In this document: positions 1,601-6,673 of the stretch, one piece after another
How the letters are laid out: each line of letters opens with the position of its first letter
How positions within the stretch are numbered: the stretch's first letter is position 1
Origin: Treponema denticola
GTDB lineage: Bacteria > Spirochaetota > Spirochaetia > Treponematales > Breznakiellaceae
Assembly: GCA_020719845.1 (NCBI GenBank)
Contig: DYPP01000004.1
Location: 1 to 64,000, forward strand
Reading direction: 5' to 3'
DNA length: 64,000 bases
Notes under the pieces: generated by a model
What the model saw: the letters and a program-made list of their open reading frames with translations, nothing else
What the model was told of the DNA's origin: nothing
Databases searched by the model: none
Position numbers and translations under genes: made by a program

Positions 1601-1624
1601 AGGGCCCCCGCGGGGGCCCTTTTA
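1601..1624 (+). terminator. Rho-independent terminator after the HEAT gene
   Basis: A perfect GC-rich hairpin AGGGCCCCCG/CGGGGGCCCT (1601-1620) is followed by TTTATT. It isolates the mutagenesis cassette downstream. Confidence 0.9.
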
Positions 1625-1631
1625 TTCGCCC

Positions 1632-1660
1632 TTGTATACTATACGTCCGTATAGTATAAT
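1632..1660 (+). promoter_or_regulatory. Promoter and palindromic operator of the mutagenesis cassette
   Basis: TTGTAT (1632-1637), a 17-bp spacer and a perfect TATAAT (1655-1660) stand exactly 6 nt before the ATG at 1667. A perfect palindrome covers 1635-1658: TATACTATACG, 2-bp centre, CGTATAGTATA. It fills the spacer and overlaps both boxes, as expected for a repressor operator. It does not match the LexA boxes I know from E. coli, Bacillus or Leptospira. Confidence 0.75.
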
Positions 1661-1666
1661 AGAGTC

Positions 1667-2461
1667 ATGTCGCGAATTTTGGTGGGGACTTCCGGTTACG
1701 GGTATCACGAGTGGGTGGGTCCGGTATATCCCGAAGGGACCAGGCCCGAAGATTATCTGTCCGTGTACGCCCGGCTCTTTCCGACGGTGGAGCTGAATTT
1801 TTCTTACTACAAGATGCCCGACGCCGATCAACTGGCCCGCATCGCCGACCAGGCGGGACAGAGCTTGCTTTTTTCCGTCAAGGCCAACGACAGCCTGACC
1901 CATCGCGTCGATCCTGCTTCCTGGAAGGATTCCCTGCGGCTGTTCCGCGCCGCGCTGGCGCCCCTGCTGGACCGGGAGCGGCTGGCCGCGGTGCTGCTCC
2001 AGTTCCCCTACTCGTTCCACTACGACCCGGACCGGCGACGCTACCTGGACGCCCTGCTGAAAGCAATGGCCCCCCTGCCCCTGGCGGTGGAGTTCCGAAA
2101 TAACGAATGGTACAACAACCGGGTCATCGATTCGTTCCGGGACCGGCGGGTGGCCCTGGCGGCGCTGGACCTGCCGGCCCTCAAGGGCCTGCCGCCGCTG
2201 GTGGACGTGGTTACGGCGCCCTTCGCCTACCTGCGCCTTCACGGCCGCAACGGGGAGGCCTGGTGGGGCTCGGATTCGGCTTCCCGTTATGATTACCTGT
2301 ATTCGGACGCCGAACTGGCAACTTTTGTCGAACGAATCAAGGCCCTGGCCGCCCGGGCGGAACGGGTATTCGTCTATTTCAACAACCATCGCCGCGGCCA
2401 GGCGGTCCGCAACGGGTTGAGCCTGGCGGACCGCCTGCGGCGGGACGGACTTTTGCCGTGA
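1667..2461 (+). CDS. DUF72 (YecE-like) TIM-barrel protein
   Basis: A 264-residue protein of the DUF72/YecE family, shown by the N-terminal GTSGYGYHEWVGPVYPEG, by NFSYYKMP, and by the C-terminal VFVYFNNHRRGQA, a variant of the family's FNN-x-H-GxA signature. The length is normal for the family. The fold is a TIM barrel and the biochemical role is unknown. It is the first gene of a three-gene cassette and its TGA overlaps the GTG of the ImuB-type gene by 4 bp, so translation is probably coupled. This position would be held by imuA in proteobacterial cassettes, which suggests a DNA-damage role here. No Shine-Dalgarno sequence is present; the mRNA is predicted leaderless. Confidence 0.9.
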   Translation: MSRILVGTSGYGYHEWVGPVYPEGTRPEDYLSVYARLFPTVELNFSYYKMPDADQLARIADQAGQSLLFSVKANDSLTHRVDPASWKDSLRLFRAALAPLLDRERLAAVLLQFPYSFHYDPDRRRYLDALLKAMAPLPLAVEFRNNEWYNNRVIDSFRDRRVALAALDLPALKGLPPLVDVVTAPFAYLRLHGRNGEAWWGSDSASRYDYLYSDAELATFVERIKALAARAERVFVYFNNHRRGQAVRNGLSLADRLRRDGLLP

Positions 2462-3642
2462 AGTACCCGCCGGCCGCCGTCGTGCACCTGAACGTTACCG
2501 GGTTTCCCGGGGCCGTATGCATCGCCCGGGACCGGAGCCTGGCGGATACGGTCTTTGTGGTCGGCGGCGGCGGTTCGCGGGCGTTGGTCAGGGACGTATC
2601 GCCCCGGGCGCGGCAGGAAGGGCTGGAGCCGGGCATGAACCTGGGTGCGGCGCTGCGGCGGGTGCGGAACCTGACGGTCATTCCGCCGGATCCGGCTTCC
2701 TGGGCGGCGGCCGGCGAAGCCATGGAAAAAATCGCCCGCCGCTACGCCCCGGTGGTGGAAAACGATTCCGGCGGACATCTGTACCTGGACCTGGCCGGGA
2801 CCACCCTGCTTTTCGGTCCGCCGGAAGATTGCGCCGCCCGCATCCGGGGCGAAATAGCCGCTGCCCTGAATATCGATCCGACGGTCGCGGTGGCCGGCAA
2901 CAAGCTGACCGCCAAGGTGGCTACCCGCACGCTGCGGCCTGCGGGCTTTGCCCTGGTCCGCCGGGGGGACGAAGCGGCCTTTCTGGCCCCCCAGGATCTG
3001 CGTCTGCTTCCCGGCATCGGCCCTGCCCTGGCCCGGCTGCTGGCCGGAGCGGGCATCCGGGATATCGGCTCCCTGGCGGCGCTGGACGACGACGAAGCCC
3101 GGATCCTGCTGGGCCGTCGCGGCGGCGAACTGCTGAACGCCGCCCGGGGGATCGACGAGGAACCGGTGCAGGGCGGATCCCCGGCGGAACGCGGCGTGCG
3201 GCGCCGGCTGACCTTCAACGCCGACGTCCTGGACGCCCAGGTGCTGCGGGGCGCGCTGATGGCGCTGACCGAAGACGCGGGCATGGAACTCCGGCGGCGG
3301 CGTTTCGGCGCCCGCCGCCTGGACCTGGCCATCGGCTATGCCGATGGAGGATACCGCCGCGCCGGAGAAGGGCTGCGCCGGGCGGCCGCCCTGGACGGAG
3401 AACTGTTCGCCCCGGCGGAACGTTGCCTGATCCGGGCGGCGGATCGCCGGCTGCGGGTGCAAAGCCTGGATCTGGCGCTGGGAGAACTGACTCCGGATCC
3501 CCGGGAACAGGACCTTTTCGACGTGGAAAAAATCGGCAAACAGGCAGAATTGCAGAGCGGCCTGGACGACCTGCGCCGCCGCTTCGGTTCCGCCGCCCCG
3601 CTGCGGGGAACGGCCCTGCTGGCCCGGAATTTCCGTGCGTAG
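2458..3642 (+). CDS. imuB: ImuB-type Y-family DNA polymerase-like protein, catalytically inactive
   Basis: A 394-residue Y-family protein that starts at GTG in a GTGA overlap. The first palm motif reads VVHLNVTGF, with Asn where DinB has the metal-binding Asp. The second reads GGHLYLDLAG, with Gly-His where active enzymes have Asp-Glu. Both substitutions are typical of ImuB, a polymerase-dead scaffold. A helix-hairpin-helix (LLPGIGPALARLL, about residues 182-195) and a little-finger region (RRLTFNADVLDA) follow. Near the C-terminus EQDLFD resembles a beta-clamp-binding motif. The next gene is dnaE2, overlapping by 8 bp. ImuB is known to recruit DnaE2 to the clamp for lesion bypass; I infer the same here. 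Confidence 0.85.
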   Translation: MKYPPAAVVHLNVTGFPGAVCIARDRSLADTVFVVGGGGSRALVRDVSPRARQEGLEPGMNLGAALRRVRNLTVIPPDPASWAAAGEAMEKIARRYAPVVENDSGGHLYLDLAGTTLLFGPPEDCAARIRGEIAAALNIDPTVAVAGNKLTAKVATRTLRPAGFALVRRGDEAAFLAPQDLRLLPGIGPALARLLAGAGIRDIGSLAALDDDEARILLGRRGGELLNAARGIDEEPVQGGSPAERGVRRRLTFNADVLDAQVLRGALMALTEDAGMELRRRRFGARRLDLAIGYADGGYRRAGEGLRRAAALDGELFAPAERCLIRAADRRLRVQSLDLALGELTPDPREQDLFDVEKIGKQAELQSGLDDLRRRFGSAAPLRGTALLARNFRA

Positions 3643-6600
3643 CCGGTTGGGACTGCGGTCGGCCTACTCTTTTCTGTACGGAACCAGCCTGCCCGCCGCG
3701 ATTGCCGCCCGGGCGCGGGAATACGGGGCGACGGGCCTGGCCATTACCGACCGCAACGGTCTCTACGGCCTGCACGCGGTGCTGGAAGCGACCAGGGAAG
3801 CGGGATTGCGTCCGCTGGCGGGCGCGGAACTGGTGGGGACGGCGGGCTCCGTCTTTGCCTTCGTCCTGGACCGCCGGGGATTTTCCCGTCTCTGCAAAAT
3901 ACTGTCCGATCTGCGGCGCGGCGCCGGACAGAAAGATCGGGCGCCGTCGGCGCCCTTCCCGTCCGCCGCCCTGCTGGCCCTGCTTCGGGAAGATGCCCGG
4001 GGGCTGGCGTTGGCCGGCCATGATCCGGATCTGCTGCAGGCCCTGGCGGGACGCGTACCCCGACTCTACGCCGCGCTCACGCCGCGCACGCTCCGGGCGC
4101 TTCCCGCCGCCCGCACGCTGGGCTTGCCCCTGATCGCGCTGGACGACGCGACCTTTCTGGATTCCCCGGACCGCGCCGCCCACGCGGTGCTGCGGGCCAT
4201 CGCCCTGGGCAAAACCGTCGGCACCCTGGCAGCCGCGGATACCGCCGACCCGGAGGACTTGTTTTTGCCCTCCGCGGCGGTGGAGCGCCGTTTGGCGTCC
4301 TGGCCGGAAGCCATCCGGGCGGCGGATGACCTGGTGGCGGAAAACCGTTTTGACCGCGTCTTCGACGGCTACGTTTTTCCGGAATATACGGGCCGGGGAG
4401 CGCAAAATCCCGCCCGGACCGACCCGGCGGAACTGCTGCGCCGACGGGTATACGCCGGCGCGGAACGGCGCTACGGCGAGCTCTCGGACGCCATCCTGGG
4501 CCGTATCGAATATGAACTGGACATCATCGAGCGGAAAGGCTTTTCCTCCTATTTCCTGTTGATGGACGATATCGTCGCCATGGCCGCCCGGACCTGCGGG
4601 CGCGGCTCCGGAGCCGCTTCGATCGTTTCCTACGCCCTGTCCATCACCAACGTAGACCCCATCGCGCACAAACTCTATTTTGAACGTTTTCTCAATCTGG
4701 CCCGGCCGGACCCGCCGGATATCGACGTGGATTTTCCCTGGGACGAGCGGGACGCCCTGATCAAGGCCGTCATCGACCGTTTCGGGGAAGATTACTGCGC
4801 CCGGGTGGCCAACCACAACTTTTTCCGCTTCCGCTCCGCCCTGCGGGAGACGGCCAAAGCCTACGGTTTTTCCGAGGGGGAGGTGTCCCGGCTTGAACGA
4901 CGACTCATCGAACAGGAAGACCGCACCGCCGGCGCCGAACCGGTATGGACCGAGATCTTGGATCTGGCCCGGCGCCTTGAGGGGCTGCCCCGGGGGCTTT
5001 CCATGCACTGCGGCGGCTTGGTCGTCTGCCCCGCACCGGTTTCCCGCTACGCCCCGACAGAACGTTCCGCAGAAGGGTACCCCCTGCTGGCTTGGGAAAA
5101 AGACGGCACCGAAGCCGCGGGACTGGTAAAACTGGATCTGCTCGGCAACCGTTCCCTGGCGGTCATCCGGGACGCCCTGGCCAACCTGTCCGAAACGGGT
5201 ATCGCGCTGGATTTTGATCGCGTCAATCCGGTGGAAGACGCGGCCACCGTCCAGGCGCTGGCCGCGGGAGATTCCCTGGGCGTGTTCTACATCGAATCGC
5301 CGGCCATGCGGCAGCTGCAGAAAAAAACCGGCCGCGGCGACTTCGACCATATCGTCATCCACAGCTCCATCATCCGCCCGGCGGCCAACCGTTTTATCGC
5401 CGAGTACGTCCGGCGGCTCAAGGGCGGATCCTGGCGACCCCTGCACCCGCGCCTGGAAACCATTCTGGCCGAAACCTACGGGATCCTCTGCTATCAGGAA
5501 GACGTATCCAAAACCGCCGTCGCCCTGGCGGGTTTTGACGAAGTAGAAGCCGACGCCCTGCGCAAGATTATCGCCAAGAAGGCCGGCGGCGAACGTTTGG
5601 CGGCTTTCAAGCAGCGCTTCTTCACCGGTTGCCGGACCAACGGCGTGGCGGAAGAAACCATCGACGCCGTCTGGGCCATGATGCTGTCTTTTGACGGCTA
5701 TTCCTTCAACAAGCCCCATTCAGCCTCGTACGCCATGGTTTCTTTCCAGTCCGCGTACCTCCGGGTACACTACCCGGCGCCGTTCATGGCCGCGGTGCTT
5801 TCCAATCAGGGCGGCTATTACCGGCCCCAGGCCTACATCAGCGAGGCGCGGCGCATGGGCCTGGCCATCGTCGGCCCGGACATCAACCGCAGCCGCTACC
5901 GCTACTACGGCATCCCCGCCGACGCCGGCACGCCGGGGACGGTGGTGGTGGGCTTGATGGCCATCGCCGACCTTTCCCGCCCCGGCGCGGAAGCCCTGCC
6001 GGCGGAACGGGACCGGCATGGCGCCTATACTTCGCTTCAGGATGTATCCGCAAGAATACATCTTTCCCGGAAAGATATCCTTGCCCTGGCCAAATCGGGA
6101 GTCTTTGACGGTCTGGAACCCGGGCTTTCCCGTCCACGGCAGGTACGGACGCTGCTGCGCGCCGCCGCCGAGCGTTCCGGCACAAAGCTGCTGGCCTTCG
6201 GTAGCCCGGCGGACCGAAAAATCCTGGCCGCCGAACCCGACCCGGTCGGGTACGCCCCGGCTTCGGCGGAAATGCTCAAGGACGAATTCGAAAGCCTCGG
6301 GTTTTTACGCCATCACCATCCGCTGATATTCTGGAGCCGCCGGCTGGCGAAGGCGCCAAGAATCAACGCGGCGGCGCTGGACGCCTGGGTCGGCCGCCGG
6401 GTGGCGCTGGTCGGCTGGCCGATCACCCGCAAGGAGGTGTGGACCAAAGACGGCATGACCATGAACTTCATGAGTTTTGAAGATGAGACCGCCTTGTACG
6501 AAACCGTCATGTTCCCCGAAATCTACGCCCGATACCGTCATCTGCTGTTCGACCAGGTGCCGTTCCACATCATCGGCAAGGTCCAAAACGATCAGGGCGC

Positions 6601-6673
6601 GCTCTGCGTCGAGGTAGCCGGCTTGCGCCGGTTGGAAGAGCCGCATACCGGCGTATTTCAGGTTTTTGCCTAA
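3635..6673 (+). CDS. dnaE2: Error-prone DNA polymerase III alpha subunit DnaE2
   Basis: A 1012-residue C-family polymerase starting at GTG and overlapping imuB by 8 bp. The PHP domain is degenerate: LRSAYSFLYG and ITDRNGLYG lack the metal-binding histidines of replicative DnaE, so no proofreading is expected. The palm is intact, with GRGSGAAS near residue 325 and PPDIDVDFPWDERD near residue 360 carrying the catalytic aspartates. The helix-hairpin-helix region and a C-terminal OB fold (VALVGWPITRKEVWTKDG) follow. The length matches DnaE2 (about 1000-1080 residues) and is shorter than DnaE1. The likely role is translesion synthesis and induced mutagenesis with ImuB. Confidence 0.92.
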   Translation: MRSRLGLRSAYSFLYGTSLPAAIAARAREYGATGLAITDRNGLYGLHAVLEATREAGLRPLAGAELVGTAGSVFAFVLDRRGFSRLCKILSDLRRGAGQKDRAPSAPFPSAALLALLREDARGLALAGHDPDLLQALAGRVPRLYAALTPRTLRALPAARTLGLPLIALDDATFLDSPDRAAHAVLRAIALGKTVGTLAAADTADPEDLFLPSAAVERRLASWPEAIRAADDLVAENRFDRVFDGYVFPEYTGRGAQNPARTDPAELLRRRVYAGAERRYGELSDAILGRIEYELDIIERKGFSSYFLLMDDIVAMAARTCGRGSGAASIVSYALSITNVDPIAHKLYFERFLNLARPDPPDIDVDFPWDERDALIKAVIDRFGEDYCARVANHNFFRFRSALRETAKAYGFSEGEVSRLERRLIEQEDRTAGAEPVWTEILDLARRLEGLPRGLSMHCGGLVVCPAPVSRYAPTERSAEGYPLLAWEKDGTEAAGLVKLDLLGNRSLAVIRDALANLSETGIALDFDRVNPVEDAATVQALAAGDSLGVFYIESPAMRQLQKKTGRGDFDHIVIHSSIIRPAANRFIAEYVRRLKGGSWRPLHPRLETILAETYGILCYQEDVSKTAVALAGFDEVEADALRKIIAKKAGGERLAAFKQRFFTGCRTNGVAEETIDAVWAMMLSFDGYSFNKPHSASYAMVSFQSAYLRVHYPAPFMAAVLSNQGGYYRPQAYISEARRMGLAIVGPDINRSRYRYYGIPADAGTPGTVVVGLMAIADLSRPGAEALPAERDRHGAYTSLQDVSARIHLSRKDILALAKSGVFDGLEPGLSRPRQVRTLLRAAAERSGTKLLAFGSPADRKILAAEPDPVGYAPASAEMLKDEFESLGFLRHHHPLIFWSRRLAKAPRINAAALDAWVGRRVALVGWPITRKEVWTKDGMTMNFMSFEDETALYETVMFPEIYARYRHLLFDQVPFHIIGKVQNDQGALCVEVAGLRRLEEPHTGVFQVFA

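Follow-up and report, generated by a model that had tools for sequence, protein, structure and literature searches.

The 64,000-nucleotide stretch of Treponema denticola DNA analysed here (the window; assembly GCA_020719845.1, contig DYPP01000004.1, positions 1 to 64,000) carries, at 1667-6673 on the forward strand, three overlapping open reading frames that encode a DUF72 protein, a catalytically inactive Y-family protein (iPolY) and a DnaE2-type polymerase. The host genome (3.31 Mb in 252 contigs, 99.9% complete) belongs to an order with Gracilinema- and Treponema-type relatives. An initial annotation of the window had read the locus as a mutasome cassette in which DUF72 stands in place of ImuA, and the gene content that it described is borne out by the overlaps of the reading frames and by their Pfam matches. 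Genome-wide there is one RecA and a LexA, each on another contig, and no second DUF72 or Y-family gene. The three genes, and the motifs of iPolY referred to below, are as follows.

1667..2461, + strand: DUF72 protein of 264 residues with an intact pocket, the sole DUF72 protein of the genome (Pfam DUF72, E = 1.7e-63)
2458..3642, + strand: iPolY, a catalytically inactive Y-family protein of 394 residues and the sole Y-family protein of the genome, overlapping the DUF72 gene by 4 nucleotides
3505..3519, + strand: EQDLF, iPolY residues 350-354, a putative beta-clamp motif situated in a linker that is modelled with low confidence
3538..3594, + strand: RecA N-terminus-like (RecA-NT-like) helix (iPolY residues 361-379), helical in the model and with a tail profile in register with the RecA N-terminus
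3635..6673, + strand: DnaE2-type C-family polymerase of 1012 residues, overlapping the iPolY gene by 8 nucleotides

Across 149 genomes of the order, surveyed by coordinate comparison, DUF72 directly adjoins iPolY on the same strand in 34 of the 36 iPolY loci. At the two exceptions (L023 and L026) that place is taken by a divergent DUF72 with a degraded pocket, which escaped the Pfam model; counting both gives 36 of 36. A cross-phylum scan of genome contigs, seeded with a seven-member iPolY alignment, yielded 80 named loci, three of which are cut at a contig end; DUF72 lies directly 5' of iPolY in 66 of the remaining 77 testable loci. These cassettes come from Spirochaetota, Desulfobacterota and Fibrobacterota, and from metagenome-assembled genomes (MAGs) labelled Myxococcota or Pseudomonadota. 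Gracilinema caldarium, a culturable species, is one of the carriers. Most Desulfobacterota loci have the gene order lexA-DUF72-iPolY-dnaE2, and the same four genes are found on a mobilizable plasmid of Desulfosarcina ovata. In 7 of the 11 named loci without an adjacent DUF72, lexA occupies its place. The adjacency of DUF72 to iPolY and DnaE2 is therefore not due to chance and is not confined to one genome; the coupling to this pair is real, crosses phyla and is probably functional. Because it has been kept as the first gene of the operon across several phyla, DUF72 is probably a working part of the bypass machine. It could instead be a passenger, an unrelated housekeeping gene carried along as the cassette spread horizontally; the cassette can reside on plasmids, and at 78 of the 115 DUF72 places in the order the gene is not beside a Y-family gene. 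We regard this as very unlikely, given the retention of one gene order across phyla, the repeated pairing of DUF72 with other Y-family polymerases and the retention under selection of copies that have lost their pocket (both described below). In two species a single genome holds two whole cassettes of DUF72 and iPolY (G016, L013/L171; G039, L012/L172). An apparently decaying cassette was seen at L030 (G094:C128), with stop codons in both DUF72 and iPolY and fragments on other contigs of the same genome.

The Y-family protein matches the Pfam models IMS (1.2e-23) and IMS_C, and its alignment with active UmuC confirms that all three catalytic acids have been replaced, Asp by Asn, Asp by Gly and Glu by His (N12, G106 and H107). 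These replacements are fixed across 81 iPolYs: counted over gap-free rows, Asn is present in 77 of 78 and Gly in 79 of 80, and the third position is His in 71 of 80 or Asn in 9 of 80. The DnaE2 protein matches DNA_pol3_alpha (7e-61), the finger domain, HHH_6 and, weakly, PHP. Its palm aspartates, including D362, D364, D366 and D501, are intact and invariant in 57 of 57 sequences, and the metal positions of its PHP domain are variable or degenerate in the same alignment set, as had been read from the window.

The AlphaFold2 model of iPolY (mean predicted local distance difference test score, pLDDT, of 83) shows the Y-family fold complete, an ill-defined linker that bears the EQDLF motif, and a single C-terminal helix. 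The ImuB-C beta-barrel is absent from the model, in which the clamp motif is followed by this one helix and then by the end of the protein; as modelled, the Y-family protein of the cassette is thus not an ImuB in the strict sense. The DLF of the clamp motif is near-invariant in relatives, and QxxLF is found in 53 of 74 iPolY C-terminal tails. The pattern of the RecA-NT-like helix is fitted by 65 of the 74 tails. The tail profile aligns with E. coli RecA, in a sequence entered by hand, over residues 5-29; it scores 6.1 bits there, against 4.0 for the best of 2000 shuffles, and 65% in hhalign. The Pfam model DUF4113 matched only 1 of 24 iPolY tails at E 0.05, so that the case for a RecA-NT motif depends on the tail profile. 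Together these comparisons give support of moderate strength to the presence of such a motif in the Y-family C-terminal tail.

This tail bears on the question of what takes the place of ImuA. In the ImuA-ImuB-DnaE2 mutasome of Caulobacter, Mycobacterium and Pseudomonas, a DnaE2 with degenerate PHP is likewise co-transcribed with an inactive Y-family partner that has a clamp motif; the present cassette differs in lacking ImuA and the ImuB-C beta-barrel and in having DUF72. It is closer to the putative DnaE2B-iPolY-RecA mutasome (gbDinB2 type) described in the main text of Timinskas et al. 2026 (PMC12926913), which has a DnaE2, an inactivated Y-family protein with RecA-NT, no ImuA or ImuB, and a wide phyletic spread. 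In these ImuA-less systems the RecA-NT-bearing Y-family proteins are proposed, according to the same text, to bind RecA itself. Four attributes of a DnaE2-iPolY-RecA mutasome are found at our locus, namely a DnaE2 with its polymerase acids and an inactive PHP domain, a dead Y-family partner, a RecA-NT-like tail and no detected ImuA. The difference is the addition of DUF72, either first in the transcription unit or between lexA and iPolY; the main text of Timinskas et al. 2026 does not mention DUF72, the string 'DUF' not occurring in it (PMC12926913). DUF72 is a probable further component of DnaE2 mutasomes that work without ImuA.

The search of the host genome for ImuA found none: the only match of the ImuA model (NF033429) was recA itself, below cut-off, and there was one RecA-fold match in all. 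Nor did any ImuA exceed the cut-off in 40 cassette genomes, although the model is insensitive: none of the control genomes, among them Caulobacter, gave a match over its cut-off. According to the literature Caulobacter has imuA, and the model therefore cannot certify absence. As to position, the initial annotation was right, in that DUF72 occupies the operon place of imuA, and no imuA was detected elsewhere in the genome. As to function, its proposal that DUF72 has taken over the regulatory and interaction part of ImuA is probably wrong, and we consider it highly improbable. The iPolY with which DUF72 is paired lacks an ImuB-C domain and ends in a RecA-NT-like tail, and the published ImuA-less systems are proposed to use RecA (PMC12926913). 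Some Desulfobacterota genomes, moreover, carry lexA-iPolY-dnaE2 without any detected DUF72; DUF72 is thus not indispensable in the way that an ImuA substitute would be. By analogy with the published systems, RecA appears the better candidate for the place of ImuA, because the iPolY tail carries the RecA-NT-like helix.

The region in front of the cassette contains three further features.

1602..1619, + strand: probable intrinsic terminator of the upstream gene, a G+C-rich inverted repeat followed by TTTT (to 1623)
1632..1660, + strand: sigma-70-like promoter, TTGTAT - 17 bp - TATAAT, as read from the sequence
1638..1655, no strand assigned: palindromic operator ACTATAC-N4-GTATAGT (ACTATACGTCCGTATAGT), inside the promoter spacer; consensus ACTAYAC-N4-GTRTAGT

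Given the probable terminator, the cassette appears to start its own transcription unit. The ATG of DUF72 is 7 bp behind the -10 box, an arrangement shared by many relatives, and with so short a distance a leaderless DUF72 mRNA is likely. The operator is present in the promoter of nearly all spirochaete cassettes, upstream of DUF72. With up to three mismatches it was found in 24 of 28 named Spirochaetota cassettes, compared with 2.7% of shuffles. At one mismatch or fewer the host genome has just two operator sites (control, 0), and nine genomes scanned at this threshold have 1-3 sites each, against 0 to 3 for the reversed pattern. The operator is absent upstream of lexA and recA of the host genome and for this reason is not called a LexA box; no shared palindrome was found upstream of the Desulfobacterota lexA genes. 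SOS control of the cassette nevertheless seems likely, helped by the position of lexA at the head of the Desulfobacterota operons.

DUF72 proteins occur in E. coli (YecE), B. subtilis, Thermotoga, archaea and many other organisms, and to our knowledge their structures have been available since 2004 with no function attached to them. The Pfam model (PF01904), the fold and the pocket residues all agree in placing the cassette protein in this family. Its model (mean pLDDT 96) matches solved DUF72 structures at Z 31-33, and fold and pocket residues are the same as in TM1631 (1VPQ), EF0366 (1VPY, 1ZTV) and E. coli YecE; the proteins of solved structure lack an assigned function, and they lack the operon partners that the cassette protein has. 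Outside the family, MbnB, UVDE (Z 14.8), sugar epimerases and endonuclease IV (Z 13.3) match with about equal scores, the UVDE and endonuclease IV matches (Z 13-15) extending over about 220-230 residues at about 10-16% identity. Neither UVDE nor endonuclease IV was listed among the Foldseek top 50 for the DUF72 model. By its model, DUF72 is a triosephosphate isomerase (TIM) barrel and not a RecA fold, and the barrel is probably of the type seen in UVDE, endonuclease IV and xylose isomerase. Thirteen pocket residues are near-invariant in cassette DUF72s: E42, K72, H79, E142, R144, D168, R190, H192, R194, N195, N239, N240 and H241.

Two enzymatic explanations follow from this fold. In the first, DUF72 would act upstream of bypass, processing lesions or abasic sites in the manner of UVDE or endonuclease IV, and would be co-regulated with the polymerase without being a subunit. 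Fold similarity to these two enzymes, a pocket that is invariant in most cassette copies, and an earlier computational study proposing TM1631 as an endonuclease IV-like DNA-binding enzyme (PMC3828134) speak for it. UVDE and endonuclease IV are TIM barrels like DUF72, but the DUF72 pocket is made up of Lys, Arg, His, Glu and Asn with no evident three-metal site, and no metal-ligand set like theirs is evident among the conserved residues, as judged from residue conservation. With Lys and Arg conserved, a three-metal site is unlikely, and we therefore assign no activity to DUF72. In the second explanation, DUF72 would sanitise or bind a damaged nucleotide or a sugar-phosphate pool product, as do epimerases of the xylose-isomerase-like kind, and would not act on DNA. 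Many of the best structural matches outside its own family are indeed sugar isomerases and epimerases, and a basic phosphate-binding pocket has been predicted for TM1631 (PMC3828134). The coupling of DUF72 is, however, to bypass polymerases and LexA and not to pool enzymes, and we think this second explanation unlikely.

Both explanations are further constrained by a reciprocal loss of the pocket. Between 4 and 11 of the 13 pocket residues are gone from the cassette DUF72 in 12 genomes of the order, G081 being counted among them though its contig holds only the end of the gene; the DUF72 of L029 is an example of such a pocket-less copy. All 12 also carry, at another place, a further member of the clade in which every assembled pocket residue is intact; in G093, G105 and G021 this further copy is incomplete or split across contigs. 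The reverse is seen in two genomes, G089 (L184/L191) and G099 (L188), where it is the second copy that is degraded, next to an intact one in the cassette. No genome combined an intact cassette copy with a clearly intact second copy of the clade, except for G016 and G039 with their two whole cassettes; in this count the extra copies in G061, G108, G015 and G058 were judged to be YecE-type from match boundaries alone, and a G099 fragment is ambiguous. On the iPolY tree the change of pocket needs about four steps.

The degraded cassette DUF72s are under purifying selection where tested. For pairs in which the synonymous rate (dS) is unsaturated, the ratio of non-synonymous to synonymous rates (dN/dS) is 0.19-0.32 for degraded DUF72, 0.11-0.31 for iPolY in the same pairs and 0.09-0.11 for pairs of intact DUF72. 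The degraded copies have lost 15 positions that are conserved in both intact sets and have kept 29 conserved positions. Four of those kept, F113, R125, I154 and D180, are common to intact and degraded cassette copies and are not shared by solo copies, which makes them candidates for a contact surface. That the pocket is needed about once per genome, and can be supplied by the other copy, is in keeping with upstream processing; the maintenance in the operon, under purifying selection, of copies without a pocket is left unexplained by it, and overall we regard upstream processing as possible but doubtful. The retention of such copies likewise tells against a role confined to the nucleotide or sugar-phosphate pool. 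Pocket loss in the presence of an intact paralogue, with the reverse in two genomes, seems to illustrate a route by which mutasomes turn enzymes into scaffolds.

DUF72 is also found beside other bypass polymerases. Two genomes of the window's family (G051 and G114; L145 and L151) have an operon of a UmuD-like S24 gene, a umuC with DUF4113, and DUF72. In the Treponema-type genome G129 (L157, 3056-5283) DUF72 is followed directly by another Y-family gene, which keeps the SIDE motif and is apparently active. A published survey found DUF72 enriched 'to some degree' near PolB2 mutasome operons (PMC11791011). Those neighbourhoods resemble ours in having DUF72 near a bypass system based on an inactive polymerase, together with LexA; they differ in that their polymerase is of the B family, whereas the cassette is of the Y and C families and has DUF72 at almost every locus of the order. 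YecE-type DUF72 genes lay beside a Y-family gene at 0 of 22 places in the order, and the DUF72 neighbourhoods on four other plasmids showed no clear link to bypass. A DUF72-dnaE2 pairing on a Rhizobium plasmid was rejected as non-adjacent, dnaE2 being about 4 kb away. Our literature search found no paper joining DUF72 with DnaE2, the lone text match being, to judge by its subject (Rv0004), one to DUF721. The operon with lexA, iPolY and dnaE2 across phyla and the independent pairings with umuDC and another Y-family gene thus point DUF72 to DNA-damage bypass, a testable assignment that is better supported than when the initial annotation suggested it. We advance, tentatively and with rather less than even confidence, the wider proposal that DUF72 is a general mutasome subunit that works with three or more types of bypass polymerase (DnaE2-iPolY, Pol V and another Y-family enzyme, with PolB2 from the literature) and recognises or processes the lesion terminus. 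In some spirochaetes it would itself have become a dead scaffold, as RecA did in ImuA and PolY in ImuB, with an intact paralogue supplying the pocket activity.

For the locus itself, the likely reading is a translesion-synthesis cassette that is inducible, belongs with the DnaE2-iPolY-RecA systems and has retained DUF72 as a further component. Besides the conserved gene order, the pairings with other bypass polymerases, the keeping of pocket-less cassette copies under selection and the shared operator speak for DUF72 as a part of the mutasome. We infer a physical complex in which DnaE2 would be the sole catalytic polymerase and the dead iPolY a scaffold, its EQDLF motif holding the beta clamp and its RecA-NT-like C-terminal helix holding RecA; RecA itself would sit where ImuA does in the classical mutasome. 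DUF72 would be co-expressed; most probably it belongs to the mutasome or works closely with it, acting at the lesion terminus. Its role may be twofold: (a) a protein contact, persisting when the pocket is lost, and (b) a pocket activity, the binding or processing of a damaged or abasic nucleotide or of a nucleotide or phosphate ligand; such an activity may be needed once per cell, and a paralogue could then supply it.

Several points weigh against this interpretation. The case is built from sequence comparison and structural models. Distances on the three protein trees correlate (r = 0.93-0.98 for 45 loci plus the window), but this correlation is inflated by shared phylogeny. In seven of the 11 genomes with iPolY-dnaE2 and no adjacent DUF72, all of them MAGs, no DUF72 was found anywhere, and it is therefore not universal and not strictly required. 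When the tail profile was aligned by hhalign with the host genome's own RecA alone, the register was the same but the value only 8%. With about four changes on the tree, the pocket losses do not amount to 14 independent events. Lastly, the fold match, with scores about equal, cannot separate DNA-repair enzymes from sugar epimerases, and with K72, R144 and R190 in the pocket, DUF72 probably lacks a metal site like that of UVDE or endonuclease IV.

The operator was also observed away from the cassette. In G000 (G000:C140:27310-27327, L046), G012, G046 and G058 (L038, L050, L051) it is found between mraZ and a small, divergently oriented gene, and that gene, or the division cluster, may be under the same control as the cassette. 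At another locus it precedes a second dnaE2-like gene that has neither DUF72 nor iPolY (L041, G025:C32:30617). In two genera (G026 and G134; L039 1456-2823, L043) it is found in the promoter of a radical-SAM/HhH protein that resembles a putative DNA modification/repair family.

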